Shown: positions 9,774 through 31,161 of the stretch, one piece after another
Layout of the letters: the number at the start of each line of letters is the position of its first letter
Numbering within the stretch: position 1 is the stretch's first letter
DNA from: Candidatus Onthomonas avicola
GTDB taxonomy: Bacteria > Bacillota > Clostridia > Oscillospirales > Oscillospiraceae
Assembly: GCA_018710845.1 (NCBI GenBank)
Contig: DVJB01000072.1
Span: forward strand, 1-64,000
Length of the DNA: 64,000 nt
Reading direction: 5' to 3'
Program-made: the position numbers and the translations under genes
The notes under the pieces: generated by a model
Database searches by the model: none
Told to the model about the DNA's origin: nothing
What the model saw: only the letters and a program-made list of their open reading frames with translations

Positions 9774-10154
9774 ATTGCATTCTCCTTGCGCGGTTCGCTC
9801 CTTTGTGGATATGCGGACCTGGGTTCCCGCTTCTGCGGGTTTGGCCGCAGAAGCAGACGGTTTCTACGCCGGCGGGAAAGCCGCCGCATCCTGACATGGT
9901 GTCAGTCTATTAACAGTATAGGCCCCGCATCGGCACCGCGTCAACCGAAAACGGCGCTGCAAAGCATTGTTTTTTTGTATTGCAAACGATAGAAAATAAG
10001 CATTTCACATCCAGTTTCATGCTGACTACAATGAAACTGACAGCGGAGCAATACTTCGCTGCCGGCTGTTTAACGGTCTCATTCGCACAGAAGAGCTGAA
10101 AGCCCGGGCAGGGTCATATCAACAGTAGCAACAAATCAATCGGAGGGAACAACT
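9774..10154. other. Divergent intergenic region (381 bp)
   Basis: No gene is seen. It lies between the divergent aldo/keto reductase and flavin oxidoreductase genes. It is AT-richer toward 9960-10040 and contains the inverted repeat at 10012-10039. Confidence 0.5.
10012..10039. promoter_or_regulatory. Inverted repeat, candidate operator
   Basis: CAGTTTCAT (10012-10020) and ATGAAACTG (10031-10039) are perfect 9-bp arms with a 10-nt spacer. GAAACTG recurs upstream of the flavin reductase gene (around 10764-10770), so one regulator may control both transcripts. Confidence 0.45.
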
Positions 10155-17785: not shown

Positions 17786-18619
17786 TTACAGCGCAATCTC
17801 CAGGCCGTCATAGGCAGCGATGATGCCGCGCGCCGCCCCCCAGGCGGTGAGCTCCTCGTGGGTCATTCCGCCGTTGTGGCTGAAGTGGTTGATCACCTTG
17901 ACTGTGCCGTCATGGATACAGCCGCGGCGGGCCATCTCGGCCAGGAAGGGCTCGATATCCGGCAGTCCCATGTGGTAGCCGCCGATGGATCTCTGCCCCA
18001 TCGTGGCGTCCAGGCTGACGAGGTCAAACCGCTCTCGTGCCAGCAGGTCCCACGCCTGCGCGGAGAGGTTGGCCCCGGTGTCATGGCCGTAGAAGACGGT
18101 CTTACCGCCCTTCTTGCAGATATAGACCAGACACTCCTCCCGCTTGTCATGGTCGGCGGGGACGGCGACAATCTCCCAGTCACCCGCACGGATAACGTCT
18201 CCCCCGTGCGTGCGGTGGAAATGCACCGCGTCGTCCAGCGGGTGGGGCTTGAAGCGGTCGATCAGGATATGCTCGTAAAATGCCTGTTCGACCGCCTCGT
18301 TGCCATAGACGTCCAGTATCCCCTCCGCGCCGTGGCCGAAGTGCTCATGGCGGTGAATCAGCTCGGTGGGAAACCAGTGATCCATGTGGCTGTGGGTGAC
18401 CAGAAGGGTGTGAATCCCACCCAGATTCAGGCCGTGGCGCAGGGCGTGGCAGTAGGTGTCAGGCGGAAAGTCCAATAGCAGCTCGCCGTCCAGCATAGCC
18501 TGGGTCCGGGTGCGCAGATTGCGTCCCCCCGCTTGGCGGGCGTTGGAACAGATCGGGCAGGAGCAGAACAGGGCGGGCCACCCCTCCGCGGCGGCGGTGC
18601 CCAGGTAACACATTTTCAT
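17786..18619 (-). CDS. PhnP-like MBL-fold metallo-hydrolase
   Basis: A 277-residue metallo-beta-lactamase-fold protein. The metal motif HSHMDHWFP lies near residue 76, further ligands in VPADHDKRE and FYGHDTGAN, and a C-terminal His in NHFSHNGG. Near the N-terminus CSCPICSNAR followed by RTRTQAML resembles the zinc-binding insert of PhnP-type phosphodiesterases. No phosphonate genes are nearby, so a cyclic phosphodiester or phosphosugar substrate is possible but not shown. Last gene of the PTS-LacI operon. Confidence 0.82.
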   Translation of the reverse strand: MKMCYLGTAAAEGWPALFCSCPICSNARQAGGRNLRTRTQAMLDGELLLDFPPDTYCHALRHGLNLGGIHTLLVTHSHMDHWFPTELIHRHEHFGHGAEGILDVYGNEAVEQAFYEHILIDRFKPHPLDDAVHFHRTHGGDVIRAGDWEIVAVPADHDKREECLVYICKKGGKTVFYGHDTGANLSAQAWDLLARERFDLVSLDATMGQRSIGGYHMGLPDIEPFLAEMARRGCIHDGTVKVINHFSHNGGMTHEELTAWGAARGIIAAYDGLEIAL

Positions 18620-18657
18620 GAAACGTCCTCGTCCTTTCCAAGATGCGGCGTGAGCCG

Positions 18658-19644
18658 TCAGACCGAGTCACGCTGCACCACGGTGTAGCCCAGCATGGTC
18701 TGCCGGACGGGCGTGTCCTCCTGCTGCCCGTCCACCAGAGAGAGCAGCATCTGCGCGGCCTCAGCTCCGCACTGTTCATAGTAAAAGTGGGCGGTGGTCA
18801 GGCGCGGGGTGACGTGAACCCCCGCCCAGCTGTCGTCGATGCCGGCCACGCTCACGTCCTCCGGCAGGCGGCGCCCCGCCGCCCGCAGGGCTTCCATGGC
18901 CCCCAGGGCGATCTGGTCGGTCGCGCACATCACCCCGTCCAGGTCAGGATGGGCGCCGAGCAGCTCCTCCATGGCCTTCCGGCCGCCTTCCACGGTGAAG
19001 GGGCTGACAGCGCAGGGGACAGCAGCCGGGTCCAGACCAGCCTCCTCCATGGCGGCCAACGCTCCCTGCCGGCGGCGCTGTCCCACCGCCACATCCCGCT
19101 CGGTGACTCCGATGTAGGCCAGCCTTCTCCGCCCCCGGCGCAGGAGCAATTCTGTGAGCTCCCGGGCGGCGTTTCGGTCGTCGTGGTAGACGCAGGGGAC
19201 GCCCTTGAACTGCTGCCCCGCCACCACCACCGGGACGGAGCAGGTGCGCAGCATCTCCTCATGCTGCGGGGTGAGAATGGTCGCCATCAGGATGACGCCT
19301 GCCACCGGGCGACTCTGAAAGAGGCGCAGGTAGGCCAGCTCCTTGTCCGGGTCGTTATCCGTATTGGCCAGCAGACACAGGTAGCCCCGCTCCTCCAGCA
19401 CCTGGGTGACGCCGGCGGTCACGCGTCCTACCGCGTCCGAGCTGATTTTGGGGACAATGACCCCGATATGGTCCGCGCCTTTGCCGCGCAGCATCTGGGC
19501 CGCCACGTCCGGCCGATAGCCCGTCTCTTCTACCACGGCGCGGATGGCCTCCCTCTTTTGTTGGCTGAGCGAGCCGCCATTGAGATAGCGGCTGACCGCC
19601 GCGCTGGAGACACCCGCGCGCTGGGCAATTTCCTTGATGGTCAT
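18658..19644 (-). CDS. LacI family regulator of the PTS operon
   Basis: A 328-residue LacI-type regulator. The helix-turn-helix TIKEIAQRAGVSSAAVSRYL is at residues 2-21 and the hinge at PDVAAQMLRG. A periplasmic-binding-like sugar domain follows, including VAGIDDSWAGVHVTPRLTT. It lies 142 bp downstream of the PTS gene on the same strand. It probably represses the promoter at 21713-21743, relieved by a sugar or sugar phosphate. Confidence 0.9.
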   Translation of the reverse strand: MTIKEIAQRAGVSSAAVSRYLNGGSLSQQKREAIRAVVEETGYRPDVAAQMLRGKGADHIGVIVPKISSDAVGRVTAGVTQVLEERGYLCLLANTDNDPDKELAYLRLFQSRPVAGVILMATILTPQHEEMLRTCSVPVVVAGQQFKGVPCVYHDDRNAARELTELLLRRGRRRLAYIGVTERDVAVGQRRRQGALAAMEEAGLDPAAVPCAVSPFTVEGGRKAMEELLGAHPDLDGVMCATDQIALGAMEALRAAGRRLPEDVSVAGIDDSWAGVHVTPRLTTAHFYYEQCGAEAAQMLLSLVDGQQEDTPVRQTMLGYTVVQRDSV

Positions 19645-19786
19645 GGGGGAACCTCCTTGCCGGGGAATCGAGGTATCTGTAAATCCTCGCCTGTATTCTC
19701 CTCTTTATTGTAGACGCTTCCGCTCTCGTTTGCAACCGCCGGGCGCGGCGAGGCCGCGCCCGGCCACTGGCGGAGAGAGCGGCAGT

Positions 19787-21679
19787 TTAGTGTACTGCAG
19801 CCGGGACAGTGAGAATCGGGTCGAGCTCGTTTGTCTCGCCTGTCCGGACGGACACGGCCCCCAGGTCCTCCGCGTTGGTGACCAGCACGGCGGTTGTGGT
19901 GGAGAGCCCGGCGGACTGGATGATCTGCCGGTCAAACTCCAGCAGGAGCTGGCCCGCCTTCACCGTGTCGCCCTCGGCGCAGTGGACCTGAAAACCCTTG
20001 CCGTCCAACTCGACGGTGTTGATGCCCACATGGATGAGCAGCTCCATGCCGTCCGGGGACTCCAGACCAATGGCGTGTTTGGTCTCGGCTACCGTGCTGA
20101 TGGTGCCGTCAAAGGGGGCCACCACCCGGCCCGCGGCGGGTTCGATGCCGCAGCCCTCGCCCAGAACGCCGGCGGCGAAGGTGGCGTCGGGGATGTCGGC
20201 CATCGGGATGACCTTGCCCTGGAGGGGGCTGTAAACCGTGCCCGGCTGGCAGTCCAGCTGGGACTGCGCAGGCTCATCGCTCTGCGCGGCGTGGGACTCA
20301 GAACCCTCGTCCCGATAGAGCGCCCAGCTCACCGCGAAGGCCACCGCAAAGGAGACCGCCAGCTCGATGGCATAGGGGATGATGTAGTCCGTCGTGGTGA
20401 GGAAGCCAAACAGGCCTGTCACGCCGTAGGCGGTCGCACCGATGCCGAAGAGGGAGCCGACCACAGAGCCGGCCGCGCCGCCGATCATACCGGCAACCAG
20501 CGGCTTGACCAGGCGGAGGTTGACGCCGAAGATCGCGGGCTCGGTGATGCCGAGCGCGGCGGACATGGCGGAGGGCAGGGCGAGGGCTTTGGTCTTGCGC
20601 TCCCGGGTCTTGAGGGCCACCGCCAGGCAGGCCGCCCCCTGGGCAAAGTTGGCAGCGGAGGCGATAGGCATCCAGGTGTTCAGTCCGGTGGACGAAAGCA
20701 TGCCGGCCTCAATCACATTGTACATATGGTGGACGCCGCACACGACGGTGAGCGGATAGATCGCGCCCATAATAGCCGCGCCGATGCCGAAGGGGATGGT
20801 GATGAGCTGCTGCACGCCGGTGAGCACCCAGTTCTCCACCGTGGAGAACACCGGCCCAAAGATGGTCAGGGTGAGATAGCCGGTGGCACAGACGGTGACC
20901 AGCGGCGTGACAAAGAGGTCCAGCATCTCGGGCACAATCTTGTGCAGCCGTTTTTCAATCTGACACATAAACCAGACCGCGATGATGACGGGGATGACGT
21001 GTCCCTGGTAGCCGGTCAGGTTGATGTCGTACAGTCCAAACCACACGTCGGCAGTCGGGATGGCGGTCCCGCTGGCCACATAGTCGGCCACAGACCAGGC
21101 ATTCACCAGGTCGGTGTGGATCATAATCATACCGATGACCGCGCCGAGGAACAGGTTGCCGCCGAAGACCCGCGCGGCGGAGATCGCCACCAGAATGGGC
21201 AGGAAGACAAAGGCGGCGTTGCTGAACAGATGGAAAATGGTATAGGTGCCCGACTCCGCCAGCGCGGGCCAGGCCTTGCTCAATCCCTCCAGAATACCCA
21301 TGATGAGGCCAGAGGCCACAATGGCCGGCAGAATGGGAACGAATACGTCGCCCAGCGCCTTGACCATCCGCTGCGGCAGGGGCTGACGCGAGGCCGCGGC
21401 CGCCTTGACCTCCTCCTTCGTGGCGGCGGTCAGGCCGGAGACCGCCAGAAACTCGTCATAGACCTTGTTGACCGTGCCGGTGCCCAGGATCAGCTGGAGC
21501 TGTCCGGCATTGCTGAATACACCCTTCACCCCGTCGATGTTCTCCAGGGCCTTCATGTCCATCTTGCTGTTGTCCGCGATCACCAGACGCAGCCGGGTGG
21601 CGCAGTGGGCGGCGCTGATCAGATTTTCCCGGCCACCGACCTTTTGAAAAATCTCTTGGGCACATTTCCGATAATCCAT
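19787..21679 (-). CDS. PTS glucoside/sucrose-type transporter subunit IIBCA
   Basis: A 630-residue fused phosphotransferase permease. IIB (1-90) carries phosphorylation Cys26 in AAHCATRLRL. IIC (about 105-450) has ten or so membrane helices and the GITEPAIFGVN signature. IIA (about 475-625) carries the active His in ELLIHVGINTVEL and the second His in ETKHAIGLES. The order B-C-A matches BglF-type proteins. The sugar could be a beta-glucoside, sucrose or trehalose. No phospho-glycosidase is adjacent; the GH1 enzyme at 51491 is far away. Confidence 0.92.
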   Translation of the reverse strand: MDYRKCAQEIFQKVGGRENLISAAHCATRLRLVIADNSKMDMKALENIDGVKGVFSNAGQLQLILGTGTVNKVYDEFLAVSGLTAATKEEVKAAAASRQPLPQRMVKALGDVFVPILPAIVASGLIMGILEGLSKAWPALAESGTYTIFHLFSNAAFVFLPILVAISAARVFGGNLFLGAVIGMIMIHTDLVNAWSVADYVASGTAIPTADVWFGLYDINLTGYQGHVIPVIIAVWFMCQIEKRLHKIVPEMLDLFVTPLVTVCATGYLTLTIFGPVFSTVENWVLTGVQQLITIPFGIGAAIMGAIYPLTVVCGVHHMYNVIEAGMLSSTGLNTWMPIASAANFAQGAACLAVALKTRERKTKALALPSAMSAALGITEPAIFGVNLRLVKPLVAGMIGGAAGSVVGSLFGIGATAYGVTGLFGFLTTTDYIIPYAIELAVSFAVAFAVSWALYRDEGSESHAAQSDEPAQSQLDCQPGTVYSPLQGKVIPMADIPDATFAAGVLGEGCGIEPAAGRVVAPFDGTISTVAETKHAIGLESPDGMELLIHVGINTVELDGKGFQVHCAEGDTVKAGQLLLEFDRQIIQSAGLSTTTAVLVTNAEDLGAVSVRTGETNELDPILTVPAAVH

Positions 21680-21712
21680 CTCGACATCTCTCCTTTTACT
21701 GAAATATTGTTG

Positions 21713-21743
21713 AAATCGTTTACGTTATATTTTCATTATAACG
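21713..21743 (-). promoter_or_regulatory. PTS operon promoter/operator
   Basis: CGTTATA (21723-21729) and TATAACG (21737-21743) are perfect inverted arms. On the minus strand they contain TATAAT, with TGTACA 17 bp upstream as -35. AAATCGTTTACGTT at 21713-21726 resembles a LacI-family operator overlapping the transcription start. Confidence 0.55.
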
Positions 21744-21883
21744 ATCGTCATTCCATTTGTACACACGGAATATTCCCCAATCTTTTTCCCTCTGTTTTGT
21801 GCACAATGCTTACAAGAACGGCCGGCCGGTCCTTTGCCCCATCAGAATTCTCCAAATCGACCTTCTCCAAAGCAAAATAGCCC

Positions 21884-21915
21884 GGCGGCATGAAGTGAAC
21901 CCACCCCATGCCGCC
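21884..21915 (-). terminator. Terminator of the SirTM operon
   Basis: GGCGGCATG (21884-21892) and CATGCCGCC (21907-21915) form a 9-bp stem. On the minus strand it is followed by GGGCTATTTTGCTTT, a moderately T-rich tail. Confidence 0.55.
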
Positions 21916-21942
21916 TGGCCCTCGTCTCCTGCCAGGCATCGG

Positions 21943-22824
21943 TTATTCCGACCATTGGCACAGCTTTTGGAGAACGGCGCCGATATCCCCGTCGATGCAG
22001 ATTGACTGCCGTCCAATCTCCCGCGGCGCCGTCGCCTGCCCTGCGTTCAGGCAGGCATAGGTCGCCTCCGGATTCTGGTGCACCATCTGCCAAAAGGGGT
22101 ATTTGATAATGCCAGGGGTGTTATACCCCACACCCAGCTCCAGGTAGAGCACCCGCATTCCCTGATGCCGCCGCAAAAAGTCCTCATACCGCGCCGCCGC
22201 CCGGTACCATCCCGCGTCCTGCACAAAGCTGTCATCCGCGCGCAGGTTCATGGTCATCGGCGCGCCACACACCGGGCAGCGCGGGATCAGCTCGGACGGG
22301 ATGCGCCTCTCCCGCTGTTCCTGCACCATCTGGCGCACGAGCTGCTCATTGTCATAAGTCCGGCTGTGGCAGGGCTTGGAACACTGCCAGAGGCCGTAGT
22401 CCCCCTGCGTGTAAAACAGGCGCTGCTTGTCAAAGCCAGAGCGCTGGAAGCAGTGATCGACGTTGGTCGTCAGAACAAAGTAGTCCCTGTCCTGCACCAG
22501 TGCGAGCAGGTCGGCGTAGACCGGCCCCGGCGCGTCCTGATAACGGTTGAGGAAGATCATCCTGCTCCAGTAGGCCCAGTACTCCTCCGGCGTATCAAAA
22601 GGGTAAAAGCCGCCGGTATACATATCATGAAAGCCGTATTTCGCCTCAAAATCCGAAAAGTGCTCCCGAAAGCGCGCCCCGTCATAGGAAAACCCCGCCG
22701 AGGTGGACAGGCCTGCCCCCGCGCCGATCACCACTGCGTCACTTTGCGCAAGGCACGCGCGCAGCCGCTCCACCTGCTCCGAGGATGTCCTGGTAGATGT
22801 CTCTGTCCTGGTCCTGAAATACAT
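21943..22824 (-). CDS. SirTM-class sirtuin (protein ADP-ribosyltransferase)
   Basis: A 293-residue Sir2-fold NAD+-dependent enzyme. The NAD loop GAGAGLSTSAGF is at residues 35-46 and TTNVDHCFQRSG at 119-130. The position of the deacetylase catalytic His is Gln140 (FYTQGDYG), a hallmark of class M sirtuins, which ADP-ribosylate proteins rather than deacylate. Zinc ligands are Cys148, Cys152, Cys183 and Cys186. ATG 22824 is preceded by GGAGG 9 nt away, inside the macrodomain gene, which it overlaps by 86 bp. SirTM and macrodomain are a known writer/eraser pair. Its target here is unknown because no lipoyl-carrier gene is present. Confidence 0.88.
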   Translation of the reverse strand: MYFRTRTETSTRTSSEQVERLRACLAQSDAVVIGAGAGLSTSAGFSYDGARFREHFSDFEAKYGFHDMYTGGFYPFDTPEEYWAYWSRMIFLNRYQDAPGPVYADLLALVQDRDYFVLTTNVDHCFQRSGFDKQRLFYTQGDYGLWQCSKPCHSRTYDNEQLVRQMVQEQRERRIPSELIPRCPVCGAPMTMNLRADDSFVQDAGWYRAAARYEDFLRRHQGMRVLYLELGVGYNTPGIIKYPFWQMVHQNPEATYACLNAGQATAPREIGRQSICIDGDIGAVLQKLCQWSE

Positions 22825-23548
22825 TAAAGATGACCTCCATTTTGTTCCGGGACTGCGCCAGATATGCTGTGACCGTCCCCACCGCGATCTCCGCCGCCCG
22901 GCGGTTCGGGAAACGAAATTCCCCCGTTGAAATGCAGCAAAACGCCACGCTGCGCAGCCCGTTCACCTCCGCCAGCTCCAGGCAGGACCGGTAACAGGAC
23001 GCCAGCAGGCGCTCATCCTCCCTGGTCAGGCGTCCGCGCACGATAGGTCCGACGGTGTGCAGCACAAAACGGCTTGGCAGGTTAAAGGCCGGCGTCAGCT
23101 TTGCCGTCCCCGTCTCCTCCTCGTGTCCCTGCCGCTCCATCTGTTCGGCGCAGGCGAGGCGGAGCTGCACCCCGGAATAGGTGTGGATGGCATTGTCGAT
23201 ACATCCGTGATTGGGGCAAAAGCACCCGAGCAGCTGGCTGTTGGCGGCGTTGACAATGGCATCGCAGCGGAGGGTTGTGATATCCCCCTGCCAGAGATAG
23301 AGCCCGGGCCGGACCGGGCTCAGCGCAGCGACGTCGGTAATTCCCTTGCGCCGGATCTCCTCGCGCAGGTAGGCGTCCTGTACCGAGAGGAATTCCTCTG
23401 AGGCCGGCAGCGGCGGGCGGACGTTCAGCAGCGCACGCAGCAGGCGCCTCTGCTCCGATTCCTCCTCCGGCAGCGAGACCGCGCCCCACTCAGGGCTCTC
23501 CCGCAGCAGCGCGCGGATCAGCCAGCGTCTTCTCTCCTCCTGCCTCAT
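22739..23548 (-). CDS. Zinc-containing macrodomain protein (ADP-ribosyl hydrolase)
   Basis: A 269-residue protein. An ~80-residue helical N-terminal region precedes a macrodomain with the ADP-ribose loop GDITTLRCDAIVNAAN (88-103). LLGCFCPNHGCIDNAIH (107-122) has Cys109/His114/Cys116 positioned as the catalytic zinc site of SirTM-linked macrodomains. HTVGPIV and FCCISTGEFRFPNRRAAEIA follow. It is expected to remove ADP-ribose from proteins modified by the adjacent SirTM. It overlaps the upstream FMN/Fe-S gene by 4 nt and the downstream SirTM gene by 86 nt. Confidence 0.9.
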   Translation of the reverse strand: MRQEERRRWLIRALLRESPEWGAVSLPEEESEQRRLLRALLNVRPPLPASEEFLSVQDAYLREEIRRKGITDVAALSPVRPGLYLWQGDITTLRCDAIVNAANSQLLGCFCPNHGCIDNAIHTYSGVQLRLACAEQMERQGHEEETGTAKLTPAFNLPSRFVLHTVGPIVRGRLTREDERLLASCYRSCLELAEVNGLRSVAFCCISTGEFRFPNRRAAEIAVGTVTAYLAQSRNKMEVIFNVFQDQDRDIYQDILGAGGAAARVPCAK

Positions 23549-24168
23549 GTCTCCTCCCCCCTTCTCCGGACAGCGGAGACCGGACAGTGCTCATAGCAGT
23601 TCCCGCAGTGCAGGCAGTGCTCCTGCTCAATGGAGAACGGGGCGCCCGGCGTGATGCAGCCCTGCGGACAGTTTGCCTCACAGGTTCCGCAGCCGATGCA
23701 GTCATCGCCGATCTCGTAGCCCTTGATCGGAGCCGCCGCGCCGCCGACGGTATAGCTCTCCCGGAAAATCGGGCGCACCCCGAGATGGAAGTACTCGATG
23801 GCGGCCTGTCGGATGACAAACACCAGGCCGATCTCCCGCGTGCCGCCGGGATAGACGTTGGCGAGGTAGGGCTGCTCGGCAAAGATGGTGTCTATCCAGT
23901 GCGCCTGCTCCTCCTGTGGGGCGGGTACCGCCCGGGCGGAAAGGCGGATCATTTCCTTATAACGGGTGTAGGCCAAAATCTGTACCCGGCCGTCCGCCAG
24001 CAGCTCCCGGCAGAAGTCCTTGCCGCGCGCCGTAAAGAAGTAAATCGCGTCCGGCTCGTAGTGAATGGCGCTGATGTTTCGCACCTGGGGCGCGCCCTGC
24101 GCGTCCACAGTGGCAAACGCCAGCACGCCCACATACTGCATCTTTTGCAGGCAGGTCTTTGCGTCCAT
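23545..24168 (-). CDS. PPOX-type FMN-binding protein fused to 2x[4Fe-4S] ferredoxin
   Basis: A 207-residue two-domain redox protein. Residues 1-135 form a pyridoxamine-phosphate-oxidase-like split barrel (FATVDAQGAPQVRNISA, IYFFTARGKDFCREL) expected to bind FMN. Residues 150-200 hold two ferredoxin motifs: Cys157/160/163/167 and Cys185/188/191/195. It may pass low-potential electrons to the radical SAM enzyme's clusters or to the nitroreductase; this is inferred from position only. Its stop overlaps the macrodomain start (4 nt). Confidence 0.88.
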   Translation of the reverse strand: MDAKTCLQKMQYVGVLAFATVDAQGAPQVRNISAIHYEPDAIYFFTARGKDFCRELLADGRVQILAYTRYKEMIRLSARAVPAPQEEQAHWIDTIFAEQPYLANVYPGGTREIGLVFVIRQAAIEYFHLGVRPIFRESYTVGGAAAPIKGYEIGDDCIGCGTCEANCPQGCITPGAPFSIEQEHCLHCGNCYEHCPVSAVRRRGEET

Positions 24169-24184
24169 CTGTTCTCCTCTCCTT

Positions 24185-24775
24185 TCAGAACCGCAGCACG
24201 CGCCCCTCTTTGCGCGGCTTCGGCGTGGGGTGGGCGTCCCCCGCGCGCGGATAGCCGAGCAGGAGCTGCATCACTGCGTAATAGTCTGTACGGACATTCC
24301 AGCGGCGCAGCGTCTCCTGCCCGTACGGGTCGGCAAAGGCGGTCCAGCCCTGGCCGATGTAGCACGAGCCGATGCCCAGCGCATCCGCCGCCAGCATCAT
24401 GTTCTCCGCCGCAACGGCGCAGTCCTCCGCGGCGAAGAGGAAGTTCTTTGGCCCGAAGAGCGTGATCACTGTCGGCGCGTCGTAAAAGGCGTTTGTCAGC
24501 TTGGGGTCGTCCGCGATGCTGAGCTGCTCCCGGGAGACGTAGCTCGTGGCGGTGGCCATGCGGGGGCGGGAGTTCGCGCGCTTGATCCTGCCCAGCCGGG
24601 CATTGACCCCGGCGTCCTGGCAGACAACGAACAGCGGCCCCTGCCGTCCGCCCGCGCTCGGGGCGTAGAGGCCCGCCTGCAGAATCTGCCGCAGGGCGTC
24701 CTCCTCGATCTGCCGCGCCGTGTCAAACCGACGGATCGCGCGGCGGTGCAGAATGGTCTCCATCACGTCTTTCAT
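24185..24775 (-). CDS. Nitroreductase family protein
   Basis: A 196-residue FMN-dependent oxidoreductase of the NfsA/NfnB-like fold. The N-terminal RRAIRRFDTARQIEEDAL gives the flavin phosphate-binding Arg residues. LYAPSAGGRQGPLFVVCQD and ALGIGSCYIGQGW follow in the usual order. ATG 24775 overlaps the radical SAM stop (ATGA), with GGAGG 10 nt upstream. In peptide-modification operons such enzymes can dehydrogenate side chains or azoline rings; here that is only a possibility. Confidence 0.9.
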   Translation of the reverse strand: MKDVMETILHRRAIRRFDTARQIEEDALRQILQAGLYAPSAGGRQGPLFVVCQDAGVNARLGRIKRANSRPRMATATSYVSREQLSIADDPKLTNAFYDAPTVITLFGPKNFLFAAEDCAVAAENMMLAADALGIGSCYIGQGWTAFADPYGQETLRRWNVRTDYYAVMQLLLGYPRAGDAHPTPKPRKEGRVLRF

Positions 24776-25812
24776 GCCGGGGCAACCTCCTTCCAACACT
24801 GCGGATCGGCGGCGTAAAAGTTGCCGTCTCTTCCGCTGGCAACCGCCGGGCAGCCCCGGCACCACGCCAGCAGCTCACACCGGGCGCACTTTTCAAATTT
24901 TGTGTAGTCCCGGTACTGCTCCATCTGGCAGACCCAGACGTCAGCCAGACGGTCCTCAAAAACATTGCCCACCCTACTGTTTTGCACGCGGCGGCAGGCG
25001 AAAATCTCTCCGGTGGGCAGGATGGTCAGATGGCAGTTGCCGCAGTTGCAGCCGCCGTAGATCATCCCATCCTCTGCCGTCTCGGGAATCCGGAACGCGC
25101 CCGTCTCATATTCGTACAGCGTCCAGAGATGGTCCTTTTTGTTGAAATAGGTCTGGCAGCCGGCCGCCTCGTAGGCGCGGAACTTCCGGTCGCAGTCTGC
25201 CAGAAGCTTCCGGTAGCGCTGCGGCGTGATGCCGACGTCCTTCTCCTCGCTGGTCGGGCAATAGCGCGCAAAGGCGAAGACATTGGCCCCAGCGGCGACC
25301 ACCGCGTCGATGATGTCGGGCACCTCGTCAATGTTGGTGCCGGACACCGTCGTCATGATGACGCTGCGGATGCCCGCGCGGTTGACGCAGCCGATTTTTT
25401 CCAGGGTGATATCAAAGCTGCCCGACTTGCGGAACCAGTCGTGCGTCTGGCGCATCCCGTCAAGCGAGAGTTGGTACTTCTCACAGCCATACTCCTTCAG
25501 CCGCCGGCAGACCGCGTCGGTCAGGTGGAAGGGGTTGCCGAGGATGGTAAACGGGACGCCGTGCTCCTTGAGCAGGCCCAGCAACTTCCAGAAGTCGGGG
25601 TGGAGAATGGGATCTCCCCCGGTGAGGTAAAAGTAGGGCAGGCGGCCGTACACCCGGCAGAAGTCGAGGCAGTTATAAAAAGTGTCCTGCATCTGCGGCC
25701 AGGTCATCGCGTCAAGCGCTTTGCAGTTGTCCTCCGAGAAGATGTAGCAGTGCTTGCACCGCTGGTCACACGCGTCGGTGATATGCCATTGAAAGGAAAA
25801 ATATTGCTTCAT
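24772..25812 (-). CDS. Radical SAM/SPASM peptide-modifying enzyme (ACGX-system type)
   Basis: A 346-residue radical SAM enzyme. Cys15, Cys19 and Cys22 (DACDQRCKHCYIF) bind the SAM cluster. YLTGGDPILHPDF is the GGE-like SAM contact. A C-terminal SPASM domain begins at GGCNCGNCHLTILPTGEIFAC and ends in CARCELLAWCRGCP, supplying Cys for auxiliary clusters. The family is named for adjacent Ala-Cys-Gly-X repeat peptides, and such a peptide is encoded 115 bp upstream (25928-26122). It probably forms radical-based links on the precursor's Cys or neighbouring carbons; the chemistry is not determined by sequence. Confidence 0.9.
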   Translation of the reverse strand: MKQYFSFQWHITDACDQRCKHCYIFSEDNCKALDAMTWPQMQDTFYNCLDFCRVYGRLPYFYLTGGDPILHPDFWKLLGLLKEHGVPFTILGNPFHLTDAVCRRLKEYGCEKYQLSLDGMRQTHDWFRKSGSFDITLEKIGCVNRAGIRSVIMTTVSGTNIDEVPDIIDAVVAAGANVFAFARYCPTSEEKDVGITPQRYRKLLADCDRKFRAYEAAGCQTYFNKKDHLWTLYEYETGAFRIPETAEDGMIYGGCNCGNCHLTILPTGEIFACRRVQNSRVGNVFEDRLADVWVCQMEQYRDYTKFEKCARCELLAWCRGCPAVASGRDGNFYAADPQCWKEVAPA

Positions 25813-25884
25813 AGAGAGAACCTCGCTTCCGGCCGTGGCCGATCATTTATCTCTGTCCGGCACGGGGCCGGCGGTTGGGGCGGT

Positions 25885-25908
25885 GCCCCGGCGGCGAACC
25901 GCCGGGGC
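25885..25908 (-). terminator. Hairpin between precursor and radical SAM gene (attenuator-like)
   Basis: GCCCCGGCGG (25885-25894), tetraloop CGAA and CCGCCGGGGC (25899-25908) form a perfect 10-bp GC stem with no T run. Placed between the precursor and its modifying enzyme, it probably stabilises or partly terminates the message so that precursor exceeds enzyme. Confidence 0.65.
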
Positions 25909-25927
25909 GAGGAGGGACGGGGCGATC

Positions 25928-26122
25928 TTACCGGTCGCCGGCGCCGCAGGCAGAGCCGCAGGCGCTGGGGGTTTTACCCGGCTGATCGGCGGCGCCGCAG
26001 GCGGACCCACAGGCGGCCGGCGTTTTGGCCGGCTGGTCAGACGCTCCGCAGGCGGAGCCGCAGGCAGCGGCGGGGGCTGCCTCCATCTTTCGGTTCCATC
26101 CGAACAGATTGGAAAGGGCCAT
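25928..26122 (-). CDS. ACGX-repeat precursor peptide (RiPP substrate)
   Basis: A 64-residue peptide. The leader-like segment (1-18, MALSNLFGWNRKMEAAPA) is followed by three copies of a 17-residue unit ACGSACGAxDQPxKTP, the last cut to ACGSACGAGDR. Six Cys at 21/25, 38/42 and 55/59 form three C-x3-C pairs. Position-specific repeats of Ala-Cys-Gly-X define substrates of the ACGX radical SAM system. GGGAGG lies 8 nt before the ATG. First gene of the minus-strand operon, separated from the enzyme by a GC hairpin. Final product, export and activity are unknown; no protease or exporter gene is adjacent. Confidence 0.88.
   Translation of the reverse strand: MALSNLFGWNRKMEAAPAAACGSACGASDQPAKTPAACGSACGAADQPGKTPSACGSACGAGDR
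25931..26068 (-). repeat. 51-nt tandem coding repeat in the precursor gene
   Basis: Two complete and one partial copies of a 51-nt unit encode (A/S)ACGSACGAxDQPxKTP. Differences are concentrated at the x positions (S/A/G and A/G). Confidence 0.8.
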
Positions 26123-26185
26123 GGTTGTTACCTCCCTGGTGTGATGTCAGACGGTGATTTGTCCTTTCTTCCCGCCTGCAAGTCT

Positions 26186-26289
26186 ATTGTAGTTCGCGCG
26201 GCGGGCGAAGAAAAGTACGCACAAATCTATTACCTAGTCACCTTTTCGTAACCAGTCCCCTTGCTTTTTCTTGCACGCTGCACTATAAT
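26186..26289. promoter_or_regulatory. Divergent promoters between the ACGX operon and hxlR
   Basis: Rightward: TTGCTT (26261-26266), 17-bp spacer, TATAAT (26284-26289), serving the HxlR gene. Leftward: TACAAT (complement of 26186-26191) is a possible -10 for the precursor operon with a poor -35, as expected if transcription needs activation or is kept low. AT-rich sequence between them (26215-26245) is the natural site for HxlR binding. Confidence 0.5.
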
Positions 26290-26333
26290 AAGAATGCAAC
26301 ACTCGTACAGAAACTATCGGAAGGGGAATCTGC

Positions 26334-26660
26334 ATGCTTACCAAGGAAGAGATGCCCGCCTGCCCGGTCGCGACCACGGTGCAGCTGATCGGAAGCAAGT
26401 GGAAGCTGCTGATCCTGCGCAACCTCCGCACCCGTCCCTGGCGCTTTAACGAACTGCGCCGGGACCTGGAGGGCATCAGCCAGAAGGTGCTCACCGACAG
26501 TCTGCGCGCGCTGGAGGAGGACGGCATCATCACCCGGACGGTCTACCCAGAGGTGCCGCCGCGGGTGGAGTACGCCCTGTCGCCGCTCGGCGAGGAGATG
26601 AAGCCCATCCTCGACGCGATGGAGCAGTTCGGCATCGAGTATAAGAGACGGCTGGCCTGA
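26334..26660 (+). CDS. HxlR-type winged-helix regulator with N-terminal Cys
   Basis: A 108-residue HxlR/MarR-like DNA-binding protein: CPVATTVQLIGSKWKLLILRNL, then RFNELRRDLEGISQKVLTDSLRALEEDG and the wing VPPRVEYALSPLGE. Cys10 lies in the position used for thiol sensing by HxlR regulators of electrophile or disulfide stress. It is divergent from the ACGX/SirTM operon across 211 bp and is therefore the likely regulator of that operon. AAGGGG precedes the ATG. Confidence 0.9.
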   Translation: MLTKEEMPACPVATTVQLIGSKWKLLILRNLRTRPWRFNELRRDLEGISQKVLTDSLRALEEDGIITRTVYPEVPPRVEYALSPLGEEMKPILDAMEQFGIEYKRRLA

Positions 26661-26681
26661 CCGGCCGCCCCGGCGGCGGAG

Positions 26682-26725
26682 GGCAGGGATGGCAGCGCGC
26701 CATGCGCGGCTATCCCTGCCTTTTT
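26682..26725 (+). terminator. Rho-independent terminator after hxlR
   Basis: GGCAGGGAT (26682-26690) pairs with ATCCCTGCC (26712-26720), followed by TTTTT. An inner GCGCGC/GCGCGG hairpin occupies the loop. Confidence 0.8.
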
Positions 26726-26798
26726 GCGCGCCGGTTTTGCCCCGTGCCGCCTTTTCTCCCGTGTCCGGAGTGCATTTTTTACCGTTTATTCATCTTTT

Positions 26799-26831
26799 TT
26801 TCAGCTTGCTTTCAGCCTGAACTCCTATAAT
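26799..26831 (+). promoter_or_regulatory. Efflux operon promoter with 11-bp direct repeats
   Basis: TTTCAGC occurs at 26799-26805 and 26810-26816, an 11-bp period typical of OmpR-family response-regulator sites. It overlaps the -35 position of a promoter whose TATAAT is at 26826-26831. No two-component genes are in the window. Confidence 0.55.
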
Positions 26832-26863
26832 GATGACATCATTTATCCTAGGAGGCATGCAAC

Positions 26864-29305
26864 ATGAAGCAGACCACCCCCTCTTCCCGGCCGGGGGACA
26901 ATCTCCCGTCAGCCGCCGCGGCCGGGAAAAAAACGCGCCGCAGGCGGGTCATCATTCTGATCGTCGTCCTGCTGCTTGTCCTGGCTGCGGCGATCTTCTT
27001 TCTTCTCCCCCGTCTGCTCGGCGGCGCGCCGGAGACCGCGGCGTCCGTCGCGCAGTCCGCGCAGGTCACGACGGGCACCGTCTCCAACTCCATCGTCGGC
27101 ACCGGCTCGCTCACCGCCGGAGAGACGGCGTCGGTGGATCTGCCCAGCGGGCTGGTGATTGACGAGGTGTATGTCTCCTCCGGTGACGCGGTACAGGCGG
27201 GTGACCTCCTGGCCAGCGTGGAGGAGTCCTCCCTCACCGGCGTGCTCCAATCCCTGCAATCGTCCATTGACAGTGTGGACGAGGAGCTGGAGGCCGCGCT
27301 GGAGGACTCGGAGGACGAGACCGAGCTGACCTCCTCCCTCTCCGGCCGCGTCATCAAAATTTACGCCGCGGAGGGCGACAGCGCCGCCGACGTCGTGGCG
27401 GAGCACGGCGCGCTGATGCTGCTGAGCGTGGACGGCAAGATGGCCCTGCGCCTGGAGGACGCCGGCTCGCTCGCCGCCGGCGACGAGGTCACCGTCACCC
27501 TCTCAGACGGGACGGAAAAAGAGGGCACCGTGGAGAGCACGGAAAACGGCGCCGTCATCACCATCGGAGACAGCGGCACCGCGCTGGATGAGACCGTCAC
27601 CGTCACCGACGCGGACGGGAACGATCTGGGCAATGCCTCCCTCTACATCCACCAGGAGATCGCCGTCACCGCCGTCAGCGGCACAGTCGTGGATCTGGAA
27701 GTCTCAGAGGGCGAGTCCATCGACGCCGGGGACACGCTCTGCACGCTGGAGAACACCGGCGCCTCCGCCGCTGTGCAGGAGCTGACCAGCCAGCGCACGT
27801 CACTGCAGGAGCAGCTCCAGACCGCGCTGCAGATCGCGCAGGACGGCGGGATCGCTGCCCCGGCGGACGGCGTCGTCCAGTCGGTCAATGTCTCCTCCAC
27901 CAGCAGCGACAGCACGAGCACTTCCAGCGGCACAACCAGCTACCTGAGCGCGGGCAGCAGCGGGACGCAGACCGCGGCGCTGACACTCCTGAGCGCGTCT
28001 CTGGACCCGGACGGAGAGAGCGGTCAGACCCCGTCGGAGGATGCGGAGTCAGAGGGGACAGAGGATGGCGGCGAGACGCCATCTGACGATACCGAGGAGA
28101 CTCCGTCGGACGATACAGAGGAGACGCCGCCGGTGGACGACACGGAAAATTCCGGAGCAGACGCCGATGACGGCACAGAGGAGACCCCTGAGACGGTGAT
28201 CTCCGACTTCTCCGCCCTCACTGTCACCGCGCCCGCCACCGGCAATGCGCCGCAGGCCGAGATCGCAGAGACGGAGGCCTATACCGGCCAGATCGTCTGG
28301 CAGACCAGCGACACTGTCTTTGCCGCCGATACCACCTATCAGGCCCGCGTGACACTGACGGCAAAGGAGGGTTATTGCTTCTCCTCCCTTCAGACGCCGC
28401 TGGTCAATGAGGGCGTGGGCTGCCTGGTCTCCGGCCTGAGCTGGTCGGAGGACGGCAAGACGGTCTCCTTCCTGGTCACCTTTGCCGCCACGGAGGCGGA
28501 GAGCGTGACACCGGAGACCCCGGACACTGGTTCGGAGGACAGCCAAAACAGCGGCTCTCTCCCCTCCGGGACGGGGAGCGGCTTCTCTTCCGGCGGGTAT
28601 TCCTTCGGCGGAGGGGCCTCTTCCGGCGGCAGCTCCGTCTCGGTCAGCGCGGCGGACTCGGTCAGCAGTATAGAAAGCGCTGCCTCTTCGGACGAGACTT
28701 CCTCCGACACGGTGAGCGCGTTTACGCTCTCCACCAGTGACAGCATGCTCATCAGCATCTCGGTGGACGAGCTGGACATCAATACAATTGCCGTCGGTCA
28801 GAGCGCCCAGATCGCGCTGGACGCCATCGACGGAGAGACCTTCTCGGGGACGGTCACCTCCGTCTCCTCCATCGGAACCTCCAGCGGCGGCTCGACGCAG
28901 TACACCGTCTCCATCTCCTTTGAGGCCACGGAGGAGATGAAGCTCGGCATGAACGCCACTGCCACCATCACCACGGAGGAGGCCGCCGACGTCCTCACCA
29001 TCCCGGTCAACGCCCTGCAGCAGAGCGGCAGCCAGGTCTTTGTCTACACCTCGGTGGGGGAGGACGGCAGCCTCTCCGGTGAGGTTGAAGTGGAGACCGG
29101 CCTTTCTGACGGAGAGACCGTCGAGATCATCTCCGGCTTGGAGGAGGGACAGACCGTCTACTACCTGCGCACCGGCTCGGACAGCACAGGCGACGCCATG
29201 AGCTTCGGCGGAGGCATGGACTTCGGCGGCGAGATGCCGGACATGGGCGGCGGTCAAAGACCGGACATGGGCGGCGGCCAGATGCCGGGTGCGGCAGGGG
29301 GCTGA
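26864..29305 (+). CDS. HlyD/MacA-like efflux adaptor with acidic and YDG-like insert
   Basis: An 813-residue membrane-anchored adaptor, far longer than the usual ~400-500. One N-terminal membrane helix (about 28-50) is followed by a barrel-sandwich region (SGLVIDEVYVSSGDAVQAGDLL) and a helical hairpin near 300-325. An insert spans about 388-625: an acidic Thr/Pro/Asp/Glu stretch, then a segment (ALTVTAPATGNAPQAE, TLTAKEGYCF) resembling extracellular YDG-type repeats, then a Ser/Gly-rich linker. The beta-barrel continues with VDELDINTIAVGQSAQIALD and a C-terminal Gly/Met-rich tail. It should connect the MacB-like ABC pair to outside substrates or wall. Confidence 0.87.
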   Translation: MKQTTPSSRPGDNLPSAAAAGKKTRRRRVIILIVVLLLVLAAAIFFLLPRLLGGAPETAASVAQSAQVTTGTVSNSIVGTGSLTAGETASVDLPSGLVIDEVYVSSGDAVQAGDLLASVEESSLTGVLQSLQSSIDSVDEELEAALEDSEDETELTSSLSGRVIKIYAAEGDSAADVVAEHGALMLLSVDGKMALRLEDAGSLAAGDEVTVTLSDGTEKEGTVESTENGAVITIGDSGTALDETVTVTDADGNDLGNASLYIHQEIAVTAVSGTVVDLEVSEGESIDAGDTLCTLENTGASAAVQELTSQRTSLQEQLQTALQIAQDGGIAAPADGVVQSVNVSSTSSDSTSTSSGTTSYLSAGSSGTQTAALTLLSASLDPDGESGQTPSEDAESEGTEDGGETPSDDTEETPSDDTEETPPVDDTENSGADADDGTEETPETVISDFSALTVTAPATGNAPQAEIAETEAYTGQIVWQTSDTVFAADTTYQARVTLTAKEGYCFSSLQTPLVNEGVGCLVSGLSWSEDGKTVSFLVTFAATEAESVTPETPDTGSEDSQNSGSLPSGTGSGFSSGGYSFGGGASSGGSSVSVSAADSVSSIESAASSDETSSDTVSAFTLSTSDSMLISISVDELDINTIAVGQSAQIALDAIDGETFSGTVTSVSSIGTSSGGSTQYTVSISFEATEEMKLGMNATATITTEEAADVLTIPVNALQQSGSQVFVYTSVGEDGSLSGEVEVETGLSDGETVEIISGLEEGQTVYYLRTGSDSTGDAMSFGGGMDFGGEMPDMGGGQRPDMGGGQMPGAAGG

Positions 29306-29308
29306 GCC

Positions 29309-29973
29309 ATGATCGTCTTTCACAACGTCACCAAGCGCTATTACATTGGTCAAAACGTCGTACAGGCGCTCGACCGGGCCAGCCTGTACATCTATCCCGG
29401 CGAGTTTGTCAGCATTGTCGGCCCGTCCGGCAGTGGAAAGTCCACGCTGATGAACATCATCGGCTGCCTGGATACGGCGGACGAGGGGGAGTACCTGCTC
29501 GATGGACAGAATATCGGGCATTACACCCAGCGTCAGCTCACGCATATCCGCCGGCGGAAGATCGGCTTTATCTTCCAGAGTTTTAACCTGATCGGCAAGA
29601 TGACCGCTCTGGAGAACGTGGAGCTCCCCCTGATTTACCAGAAGGTGCCCCGGAAGGAGCGGCAGCTGCGGGCGATGGAGGCGCTGCGTTCGGTCGGCCT
29701 GCTGGACCGAATGAACCACCGTCCGAGCGAGCTCTCCGGCGGCCAGCAGCAGCGCATCGCCATCGCACGCGCCCTGGCCACCCGCCCCTCCCTCTTCCTG
29801 GCCGACGAGCCAACGGGCAACCTGGACTCGCGTACCAGCGAGGAGATCATGAGCCTGTTTCACCGCCTGCACGAGGATGGGAACACCATCGTGCTCATCA
29901 CCCACGACACCGAGGTCTCCCTGCAGGCCCAGCGGCGGCTGCACATCCGCGACGGAAGGGTGGTGCATGAGGA

Positions 29974-29977
<4 letters not shown>
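29309..29977 (+). CDS. MacB-type ABC transporter ATP-binding protein
   Basis: A 222-residue ATPase. Walker A is GPSGSGKST (residues 39-47). The LolD/MacB-specific [20 protein letters not shown] follows, then signature [15 protein letters not shown] and Walker [13 protein letters not shown], with the H-loop in VLITHDTE. It starts 3 nt after the adaptor stop and overlaps the permease start by 4 nt, so the three form one operon. It powers extrusion or mechanotransmission; the substrate (peptide, drug or lipid) is unknown. Confidence 0.95.

Positions 29978-31161
<1,184 letters not shown>

Follow-up and report, generated by a model that had tools for sequence, protein, structure and literature searches.

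We analyzed a 64,000-nucleotide (nt) stretch of DNA from the gut bacterium Candidatus Onthomonas avicola (contig DVJB01000072.1, positions 1 to 64,000; hereafter the window) and find in it an extended operon of a new type for SirTM, the class M sirtuin. Six genes run in the same direction on the minus strand, from 26122 down to 21943. They encode an ACGX-repeat peptide, its radical SAM/SPASM maturase, a nitroreductase, a PPOX-type flavin mononucleotide (FMN) protein with a ferredoxin domain (PPOX-ferredoxin), a zinc macrodomain (Zn-Macro), and SirTM; a gene for an HxlR-family regulator diverges from them (Table 1). An earlier note, made from the sequence alone, had described these seven genes as one minus-strand operon with a divergent HxlR gene; all are present where it placed them, and its family assignments are borne out. 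Its title called the two systems "fused", but no proteins are fused, and the halves are joined in one operon. The recurrence of this pairing across related bacteria points to new targets for the ADP-ribosylation system. We give about even chances to the reading that the locus is a thiol- and electrophile-stress operon, in which SirTM and the macrodomain would toggle a redox component encoded by the operon itself.

The ACGX and SirTM halves occur together more than chance allows. Among 394 genomes sampled from the window's order, 25 carry the maturase above its cut-off and 93 carry SirTM at E ≤ 1e-40. SirTM was found in 22 of the 25 ACGX genomes against 9.3 expected in a family-stratified test (P 1.7e-8), and against 8.4 expected (P 1.4e-9) when the SirTM count was made stricter by leaving out matches with a low score per position. 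The per-family counts behind both tests were typed by hand from listed rows; 39 genomes with no radical SAM match were unlisted and were added only if they stood in the SirTM listing. Thirteen of the 22 co-occurring genomes have the genes at most 5 kb apart, and nine have them apart; in G094, one of the nine, the ACGX operon lies near a contig end. In a class sample of 391 genomes, all 16 ACGX genomes carry SirTM (E ≤ 1e-75) versus 47 of 375 others (Fisher P 3.5e-14, kinship uncorrected). Twelve of these 16, from six genera, lie outside the window's order, and linkage within 5 kb is seen in ten of the twelve. Taking both samples together, there are 37 distinct ACGX genomes; 34 have SirTM, 23 of them at most 5 kb from the radical SAM gene, and the weakest SirTM match among ACGX genomes is that of G693 (315 bits).

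Scanning GTDB contigs for maturase relatives, we kept the best 80 of 449 stretches. After five duplicates were dropped, both sources gave 102 loci; the 69 with 5 kb downstream were kept and 33 were left out. In two of the 69 (L061 and L062), the maturase gene is broken or cut and scores below the cut-off. Within 5 kb, SirTM was found at 41 of the 69 loci, the PPOX-ferredoxin at 45, and the macrodomain at 33. The earlier note had suggested this 5-kb count and regarded a consistent lack of SirTM among ACGX relatives as telling against its idea; no such consistent lack was found. In the linked loci, the distance matrices of the radical SAM protein and SirTM correlated with r 0.36, those of the macrodomain and SirTM with 0.72, and those of the radical SAM protein and the PPOX-ferredoxin with 0.30 (32 of 500 permutations as high), all computed with no species-tree control.

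A common promoter element accompanies the ACGX operons. The exact 10-mer GTGCGTACTT stands between the HxlR gene and the peptide gene in 68 of 80 ACGX regions including the window, against a mean of 0.09 in shuffles that preserve base composition only, and all 68 copies point in the direction of the peptide gene. Besides the window, the 80 regions comprise 79 loci in which an HxlR gene was detected and more than 100 nt lie upstream; they contain exact dyads of the forms GTCAC-N6 (14 regions) and GTTAC-N6 (11 regions). Sixty loci were also retrieved around SirTM genes; in 18 of them the same box stands upstream of SirTM, at most 4.5 kb away. Among the 18, L185 adjoins an ACGX maturase fragment, and L220 and L221 come from the ACGX genomes G375 and G378, in which SirTM is unlinked. 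Relaxing the box by one position raised the count to 32 of 60 loci, with 0 of 60 in reversed-sequence controls. Searching the 25 ACGX genomes for the box together with its -10-like hexamer, we obtained 37 matches in 22 genomes (two of the 37 being one site) versus 2 in the control. Ten further box sites were read, with Pfam run on two examples. Four (L239, L242, L252, and L266) lie beside an FMN-reductase-type gene, and L252 and L239 have, by eye, a divergent HxlR-type gene; L244 has an NAD(P)H-binding-type gene as its neighbour, L260 falls within a long gene, and the others are unclear. L252 belongs to the window's own genome (G000:C41:6140-6175), where this additional box stands between genes that read as HxlR-type and FMN-reductase-type. 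Because the box marks a wider HxlR-type promoter set, it supports co-regulation of the two halves and not a private link between them.

At L082 (positions 6407 and 10177), a linked ACGX locus, a second box, searched for in its relaxed form, stands just before SirTM. Together with the nine genomes of the order in which SirTM is unlinked, this box suggests separate transcripts of the two halves in some relatives. The N-terminal Cys of the regulator, in a CPV motif, is kept in 75 of the 79 HxlR proteins adjoining ACGX, as in sensing members of the DUF24/HxlR family. For Bacillus, PMC6943732 describes regulators of this family whose N-terminal Cys senses quinones, diamide, and hypochlorous acid and which in B. 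subtilis control a nitroreductase; the sensing role of this residue is taken from there. The redox gating that the earlier note had raised as an option fits such a regulator.

The two halves are separable modules. Loci L058 and L189, from two genomes of one genus, are alike on both flanks, with 95% identity toward HxlR and 90% toward the macrodomain and SirTM. Between these flanks, L058 has 2,551 bp carrying the peptide, maturase, nitroreductase, and PPOX-ferredoxin genes, where L189 has 17 bp. This is a clean presence and absence of a cassette between the promoter and the macrodomain, and the separability of this 2.5-kb cassette led us to reject ACGX and SirTM as an obligate unit. When SirTM sequences were placed on a tree of 109 rows, linkage to ACGX (scored by a 6-kb rule) required 24 changes of label, at least seven of them forced by starred branches; the tree was a quick one with support from the Shimodaira-Hasegawa-like approximate likelihood ratio test (SH-aLRT) only, and a row was excluded if it was shorter than 220 amino acids (aa) or contained a stop. 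At ACGX-less loci, the SirTM/macrodomain pair stands behind varied genes, some of them redox-type by reading.

TQGD replaces the usual HG in the sirtuin of the window and in every one of the 109 SirTM sequences compared, and this HG-to-QG change is that of class M. Pfam at E 0.01 gave no match for SirTM. Its nearest PDB entry, 5a3a, is annotated as a SIR2 family protein, and we take it to be the S. pyogenes SirTM of Rack 2015. The nearest PDB entries to the macrodomain are 8rsi/5kiv, at about 260 bits, and 96 of 98 macrodomains from the fetched loci show the zinc-loop pattern of Zn-Macro proteins (GC..P.H.C.DN..H-type). The two genes are linked through their overlap in the window, and a macrodomain match was found in 58 of the 60 loci fetched around SirTM. 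By homology, SirTM would thus be the writer and Zn-Macro the eraser of ADP-ribose.

We also picked 15 genomes for having SirTM in an ACGX locus with no adjacent macrodomain. A strong macrodomain match (>350 bits) lies elsewhere in 13 of them (not in G398 and G404), and we rejected the idea that such loci are eraser-free. Beside those 13 remote macrodomains, no SirTM was seen in eight fetched stretches, and a second SirTM, whole or partial, was seen in five. In G375, the lone Zn-Macro found lies in the ACGX operon and the lone SirTM found lies at a separate locus with the promoter box and no macrodomain nearby. In some genomes of the order, divergent SirTM-like sirtuin genes of about 190-246 bits each stand in tandem, two or three to an array (G293:C29:1730-4308, G139:C22:4282-6798, G295:C262:9428-11112, and G159:C34:6262-7946). 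SirTM genes with in-frame stops, apparently decaying copies, were seen at G237:C2:1128493-1129356, G130:C15:2417-3276, and G301:C22:119085-119579.

SirTM pairs either form an independent operon or belong to an extended one, of which the lipoate type has been described (Rack 2015, PMC4518038). In this known operon, LplA2 lipoylates GcvH-L, SirTM ADP-ribosylates it, and Zn-Macro releases it; the operon includes two redox enzymes and is linked to oxidative stress (PMC4518038, PMC11490716). A Zn-Macro:GcvH-L complex has been predicted computationally (Ariza 2024). No GcvH match was found in the window's genome or among the seven locus proteins, so the operon is not of the GcvH-L/LplA2 type, and lipoyl-GcvH-L was rejected as the SirTM target in this host. 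Of the 25 ACGX genomes, 18 have no GcvH match, two have a strong one, and five have a weak one (20-24 bits).

In the window peptide, three Cys stand in C-X3-D and three in C-X3-C register. The same register recurs in the 87 of 96 ACGX peptides that have a clear start. The residue four positions after their 588 Cys is Asp in 312 cases, Glu in 6, Cys in 254, and another residue in 16 (D/E or C in 572 of 588), and 312 of their 350 Asp sit four residues after a Cys. C-X3-D/E was observed 318 times, against a mean of 46.8 and a maximum of 64 when the non-Cys residues were shuffled; within-peptide repeats and kinship are uncorrected in these counts. The repeat unit is A-C-G-x-x-D, frequently doubled as A-C-G-S/T-A-C-G-A-x-D, and it contains the CX3D motif of PapB-type ranthipeptide precursors. 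PapB has the substrate motif Cys-X3-Asp/Glu and joins the Cys to the Asp beta-carbon or the Glu gamma-carbon (PMC9413430). Peptide and maturase both score above the curated cut-offs of the ACGX family (TIGR04341 and TIGR04340). Among solved radical SAM structures, the closest match to the maturase is the peptide maturase SkfB (48 bits), a thioether-forming enzyme.

Reading the clusters from -3.5 to +8 kb around the ACGX loci (cluster table; eleven clusters by eye, two sequences each), we saw no recurrent peptidase or dedicated exporter, which suggests that the peptide is intracellular. Transport-type clusters there were MATE-type in six loci and mixed ABC ATPases in six. A defence-island reading was rejected, PADLOC reporting only generic radical SAM, ferredoxin, and helix-turn-helix (HTH) similarity. 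The radical SAM genes of some relatives contain short in-frame inserts of 45-120 nt with inverted repeats, which look like palindromic in-frame mobile elements (L136:9339-9386 and 9873-9917; L111:781-827 and 1315-1358; L099:2246-2326; L109:10744-10822; L110:789-908); in L111 and L136, two similar inserts lie within one gene. In the open-access literature, we found no paper on ACGX peptides nor, among the matches listed, any naming TIGR04340 or TIGR04341, and a search for ranthipeptides in Lachnospiraceae found nothing.

The gene after the maturase is a nitroreductase in 44 of the 69 ACGX loci and a zinc-type/MDR dehydrogenase in 20 (64 of 69 in all). Since the two alternate there and never occur together, the position fits a slot for a detoxifying reductase. 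An AlphaFold2 model of the PPOX-ferredoxin (predicted local distance difference test score, pLDDT, 91.4) matches the PPOX family, which confirms the FMN split-barrel family only. This protein is present in 33 of the 41 SirTM-bearing ACGX loci. At L072, from a cultured Agathobaculum strain of the gut, the HxlR, peptide, maturase, nitroreductase, macrodomain, and SirTM genes are all there, with no PPOX-ferredoxin detected. Among 60 further SirTM loci, a PPOX match was found in 20, in 18 of them directly before the macrodomain on the same strand; these matches are distant (26-39% identity) except at L185 (65%) and L199 (77%).

From these observations, we propose how the operon may work. With its N-terminal Cys as the sensor, the HxlR/DUF24 regulator would respond to quinones or other thiol-reactive stress and would act at the dyad and GTGCGTACTT. 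The radical SAM enzyme would cross-link the Cys-X3-Asp units of the peptide as thioethers, in the manner of ranthipeptides; the first Cys of each doubled unit would remain a free thiol, and the peptide would stay in the cell. Reducing power may come from the nitroreductase (the MDR dehydrogenase in relatives) and the PPOX-ferredoxin. SirTM would add ADP-ribose to an operon-encoded redox component and the zinc macrodomain would remove it, the modification keeping that component inactive until stress. An operon-encoded target is favoured, because neither the window's genome nor 18 of the 25 ACGX genomes gave a GcvH match. Our first candidate would be a carboxylate in the repeat peptide, taking the role of lipoyl-GcvH-L in Staphylococcus, and our second the PPOX-ferredoxin. 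In such a scheme, the peptide would correspond to GcvH-L, the radical SAM enzyme to LplA2, and the nitroreductase or MDR dehydrogenase with the PPOX-ferredoxin to OYE and LLM, with the same writer and eraser. The most specific version would make the ACGX peptide a thioether-cross-linked, thiol-bearing redox carrier, the ribosomal counterpart of lipoyl-GcvH-L, whose repeat carboxylates SirTM ADP-ribosylates reversibly and from which the zinc macrodomain releases ADP-ribose under stress. We hold this version tentatively and think it rather doubtful. If true, SirTM would gain its first target besides GcvH-L, and a radical SAM-modified peptide would for the first time carry a reversible ADP-ribose switch, as far as the open-access literature goes.

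Several results weigh against a stress operon that toggles its own redox component. SirTM is absent within 5 kb at 28 of the 69 ACGX loci, and 71 of the 93 SirTM genomes of the order have no ACGX maturase above cut-off, so the peptide cannot be a general SirTM target. Three of the 25 ACGX genomes in the order sample (G151, G316, and G319) yielded neither SirTM nor Zn-Macro; the only macrodomain match among the three, in G316, is weak (133 bits). In the linked loci, HxlR and SirTM distances correlate with r 0.12, which is not significant. Scoring 54.5 bits against the PapB family NF047865 (cut-off 340), the maturase is not a PapB member. Since it lies outside that family and its best solved relative is SkfB at 48 bits, we go no further than to infer thioether chemistry from register and kinship. 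The Asp of CX3D is retained in two ACGX genomes with no SirTM (L041 and L059), so its conservation does not require SirTM, and we rejected it as a SirTM signature; L050, a third such genome, has mostly Glu (CX3E). Because the box also marks flavin-reductase genes beside HxlR-type genes, its presence at both halves may reflect no more than membership in one stress regulon, and co-regulation by itself could account for the pairing. The claim of the earlier note that both halves work in one pathway thus holds in part: the co-occurrence above chance and the common box at L220 and L221, where the halves lie apart, agree with it, but the separability seen in loci, genomes, and the L058/L189 pair does not.

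A shared regulon with separate chemistry is the strongest rival: two stress modules would use a common HxlR-type promoter, and SirTM would modify something else in the cell. We consider this quite possible, though short of an even chance. In its favour are the cassette that comes and goes between promoter and macrodomain in L058/L189, the SirTM pairs behind varied genes at ACGX-less loci, the box upstream of FMN-reductase-type genes, and the second box immediately before SirTM in L082. It accounts less well for a co-presence that is nearly complete at the genome level (34 of 37) and that persists when the genes are unlinked (9 of 22 genomes), or for a writer and an eraser that can be split between the ACGX operon and a separate locus, as in G375.

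The SirTM target might instead be the PPOX-ferredoxin flavoprotein, with the peptide a mere neighbour. PPOX-type proteins accompany SirTM both with ACGX (33 of 41 loci) and in its absence (20 of 60, 18 of them just before the macrodomain), but eight of the 41 SirTM-bearing ACGX loci have no detected PPOX-ferredoxin and the matches in the 60 further loci are mostly distant, so we judge this unlikely. We think it very improbable that the peptide is an exported ribosomally synthesized and post-translationally modified peptide (RiPP), a bacteriocin or a signal, with the ADP-ribosylation pair serving self-protection. The layout of a radical SAM maturase beside a short repeat peptide is RiPP-like, but no recurrent peptidase or dedicated exporter was seen in the clusters read around the ACGX loci, and PADLOC gave only generic similarity. 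Chance neighbours or an assembly artefact are excluded, because the same gene order recurs in many independent assemblies and families.

Table 1 Features of the locus in the window
Feature	Position	Strand	Basis
HxlR/DUF24-family regulator, N-terminal Cys (PACPV)	26334..26660	+	PF01638, 108.6 bits (cut-off 20.8)
Operator-like imperfect dyad GTTAC-N6-GTGAC	26237..26252	-	Read from sequence
Conserved promoter box GTGCGTACTT	26213..26222	-	68/80 homologous regions
-10-like TACAAT, 21 nt past the box	26186..26191	-	Box + hexamer match 26186-26222; read from conservation
ACGX-repeat peptide, 64 aa, 6 Cys	25928..26122	-	TIGR04341, 53.6 bits (cut-off 28)
Radical SAM/SPASM maturase, ACGX system	24772..25812	-	TIGR04340, 596.1 bits (cut-off 400)
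Nitroreductase-family flavoenzyme	24185..24775	-	PF00881, above Pfam cut-off
PPOX-type FMN split-barrel + 2x[4Fe-4S] ferredoxin domain	23545..24168	-	PF01243 and Fer4, above Pfam cut-offs
Zinc macrodomain (Zn-Macro), ADP-ribose eraser by homology	22739..23548	-	NF003163, 358 bits (cut-off 272)
Class M sirtuin (SirTM), Gln variant, ADP-ribose writer by homology	21943..22824	-	Nearest PDB 5a3a, 268 bits
Terminator-like hairpin after SirTM	21884..21915	-	14-pair stem; consensus match only

The genes after the radical SAM gene follow each other closely. The 4-nt overlap, the second 4-nt overlap, and the 86-nt macrodomain-SirTM overlap given in the earlier note hold, but the gap between the nitroreductase and PPOX genes is 16 nt, not 9. 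Five further terminator-like matches between 21600 and 26700 are weak and all lie within genes. A scan with the sigma-70 consensus gave no promoter-like site upstream of the peptide gene. An RNA element at the locus was rejected, Rfam at gathering thresholds giving no match from 20000 to 28500. The hairpin between the peptide and radical SAM genes (-51.3 kcal/mol) was rejected as a special element, its z being only -1.5. The neighbours, judged by their translations alone, are a metallo-hydrolase-like gene, a LacI-type regulator, and a PTS permease at 17786-21679 (minus strand) and an efflux-type adaptor, an ABC ATPase, and a permease at 26864-31161 (plus strand).

The earlier note knew of no described system joining these parts. 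In the open-access literature (subscription papers and preprints lying outside this scope), we likewise found no description of an operon joining the ACGX peptide and radical SAM enzyme with SirTM and the macrodomain. The NCBIfam models of the ACGX system (TIGR04340/TIGR04341), whose cut-offs the peptide and maturase pass, name these two components only; the link to SirTM and Zn-Macro, the HxlR box, and the reductase slot were found here. SirTM in these bacteria is thereby tied to an HxlR-type redox promoter element. The operon also offers a testable short list of SirTM targets in a host with no GcvH match, where writer and eraser share a single promoter with a peptide-modification system, and its arrangement recurs across many families. 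For the ACGX peptides, it suggests a chemical hypothesis, the CX3D thioether, and a role in stress.

The operon resembles three other known systems. With PapA/PapB (PMC9413430), it shares a Cys-X3-Asp register (CX3E in L050) and a radical SAM/SPASM enzyme; unlike PapB, the ACGX maturase falls far under the PapB cut-off, its peptides have doubled units with C-X3-C, and its chemistry is only presumed. With the YodB/CatR/HypR redox regulons of Bacillus (PMC6943732), it shares an HxlR-family regulator with an N-terminal Cys beside flavin or nitro reductases, but here the regulator adjoins a peptide-maturase and ADP-ribosylation cassette, and the conserved box is GTGCGTACTT. The extended SirTM operon of Lactobacillales and Staphylococcaceae (GcvH-L, LplA2, Zn-Macro, SirTM, OYE, and LLM; PMC4518038, Ariza 2024 PMC11490716) likewise has adjacent, overlapping SirTM and Zn-Macro genes, two redox enzymes, and an association with oxidative stress. 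Another common trait is a small carrier that bears sulfur (in our operon the Cys peptide), encoded together with its modifying enzyme. They differ in that the window operon has the ACGX peptide and radical SAM enzyme instead of GcvH-L and a lipoate ligase, the nitroreductase or MDR dehydrogenase and the PPOX-ferredoxin in place of OYE and LLM, and an HxlR-box promoter.

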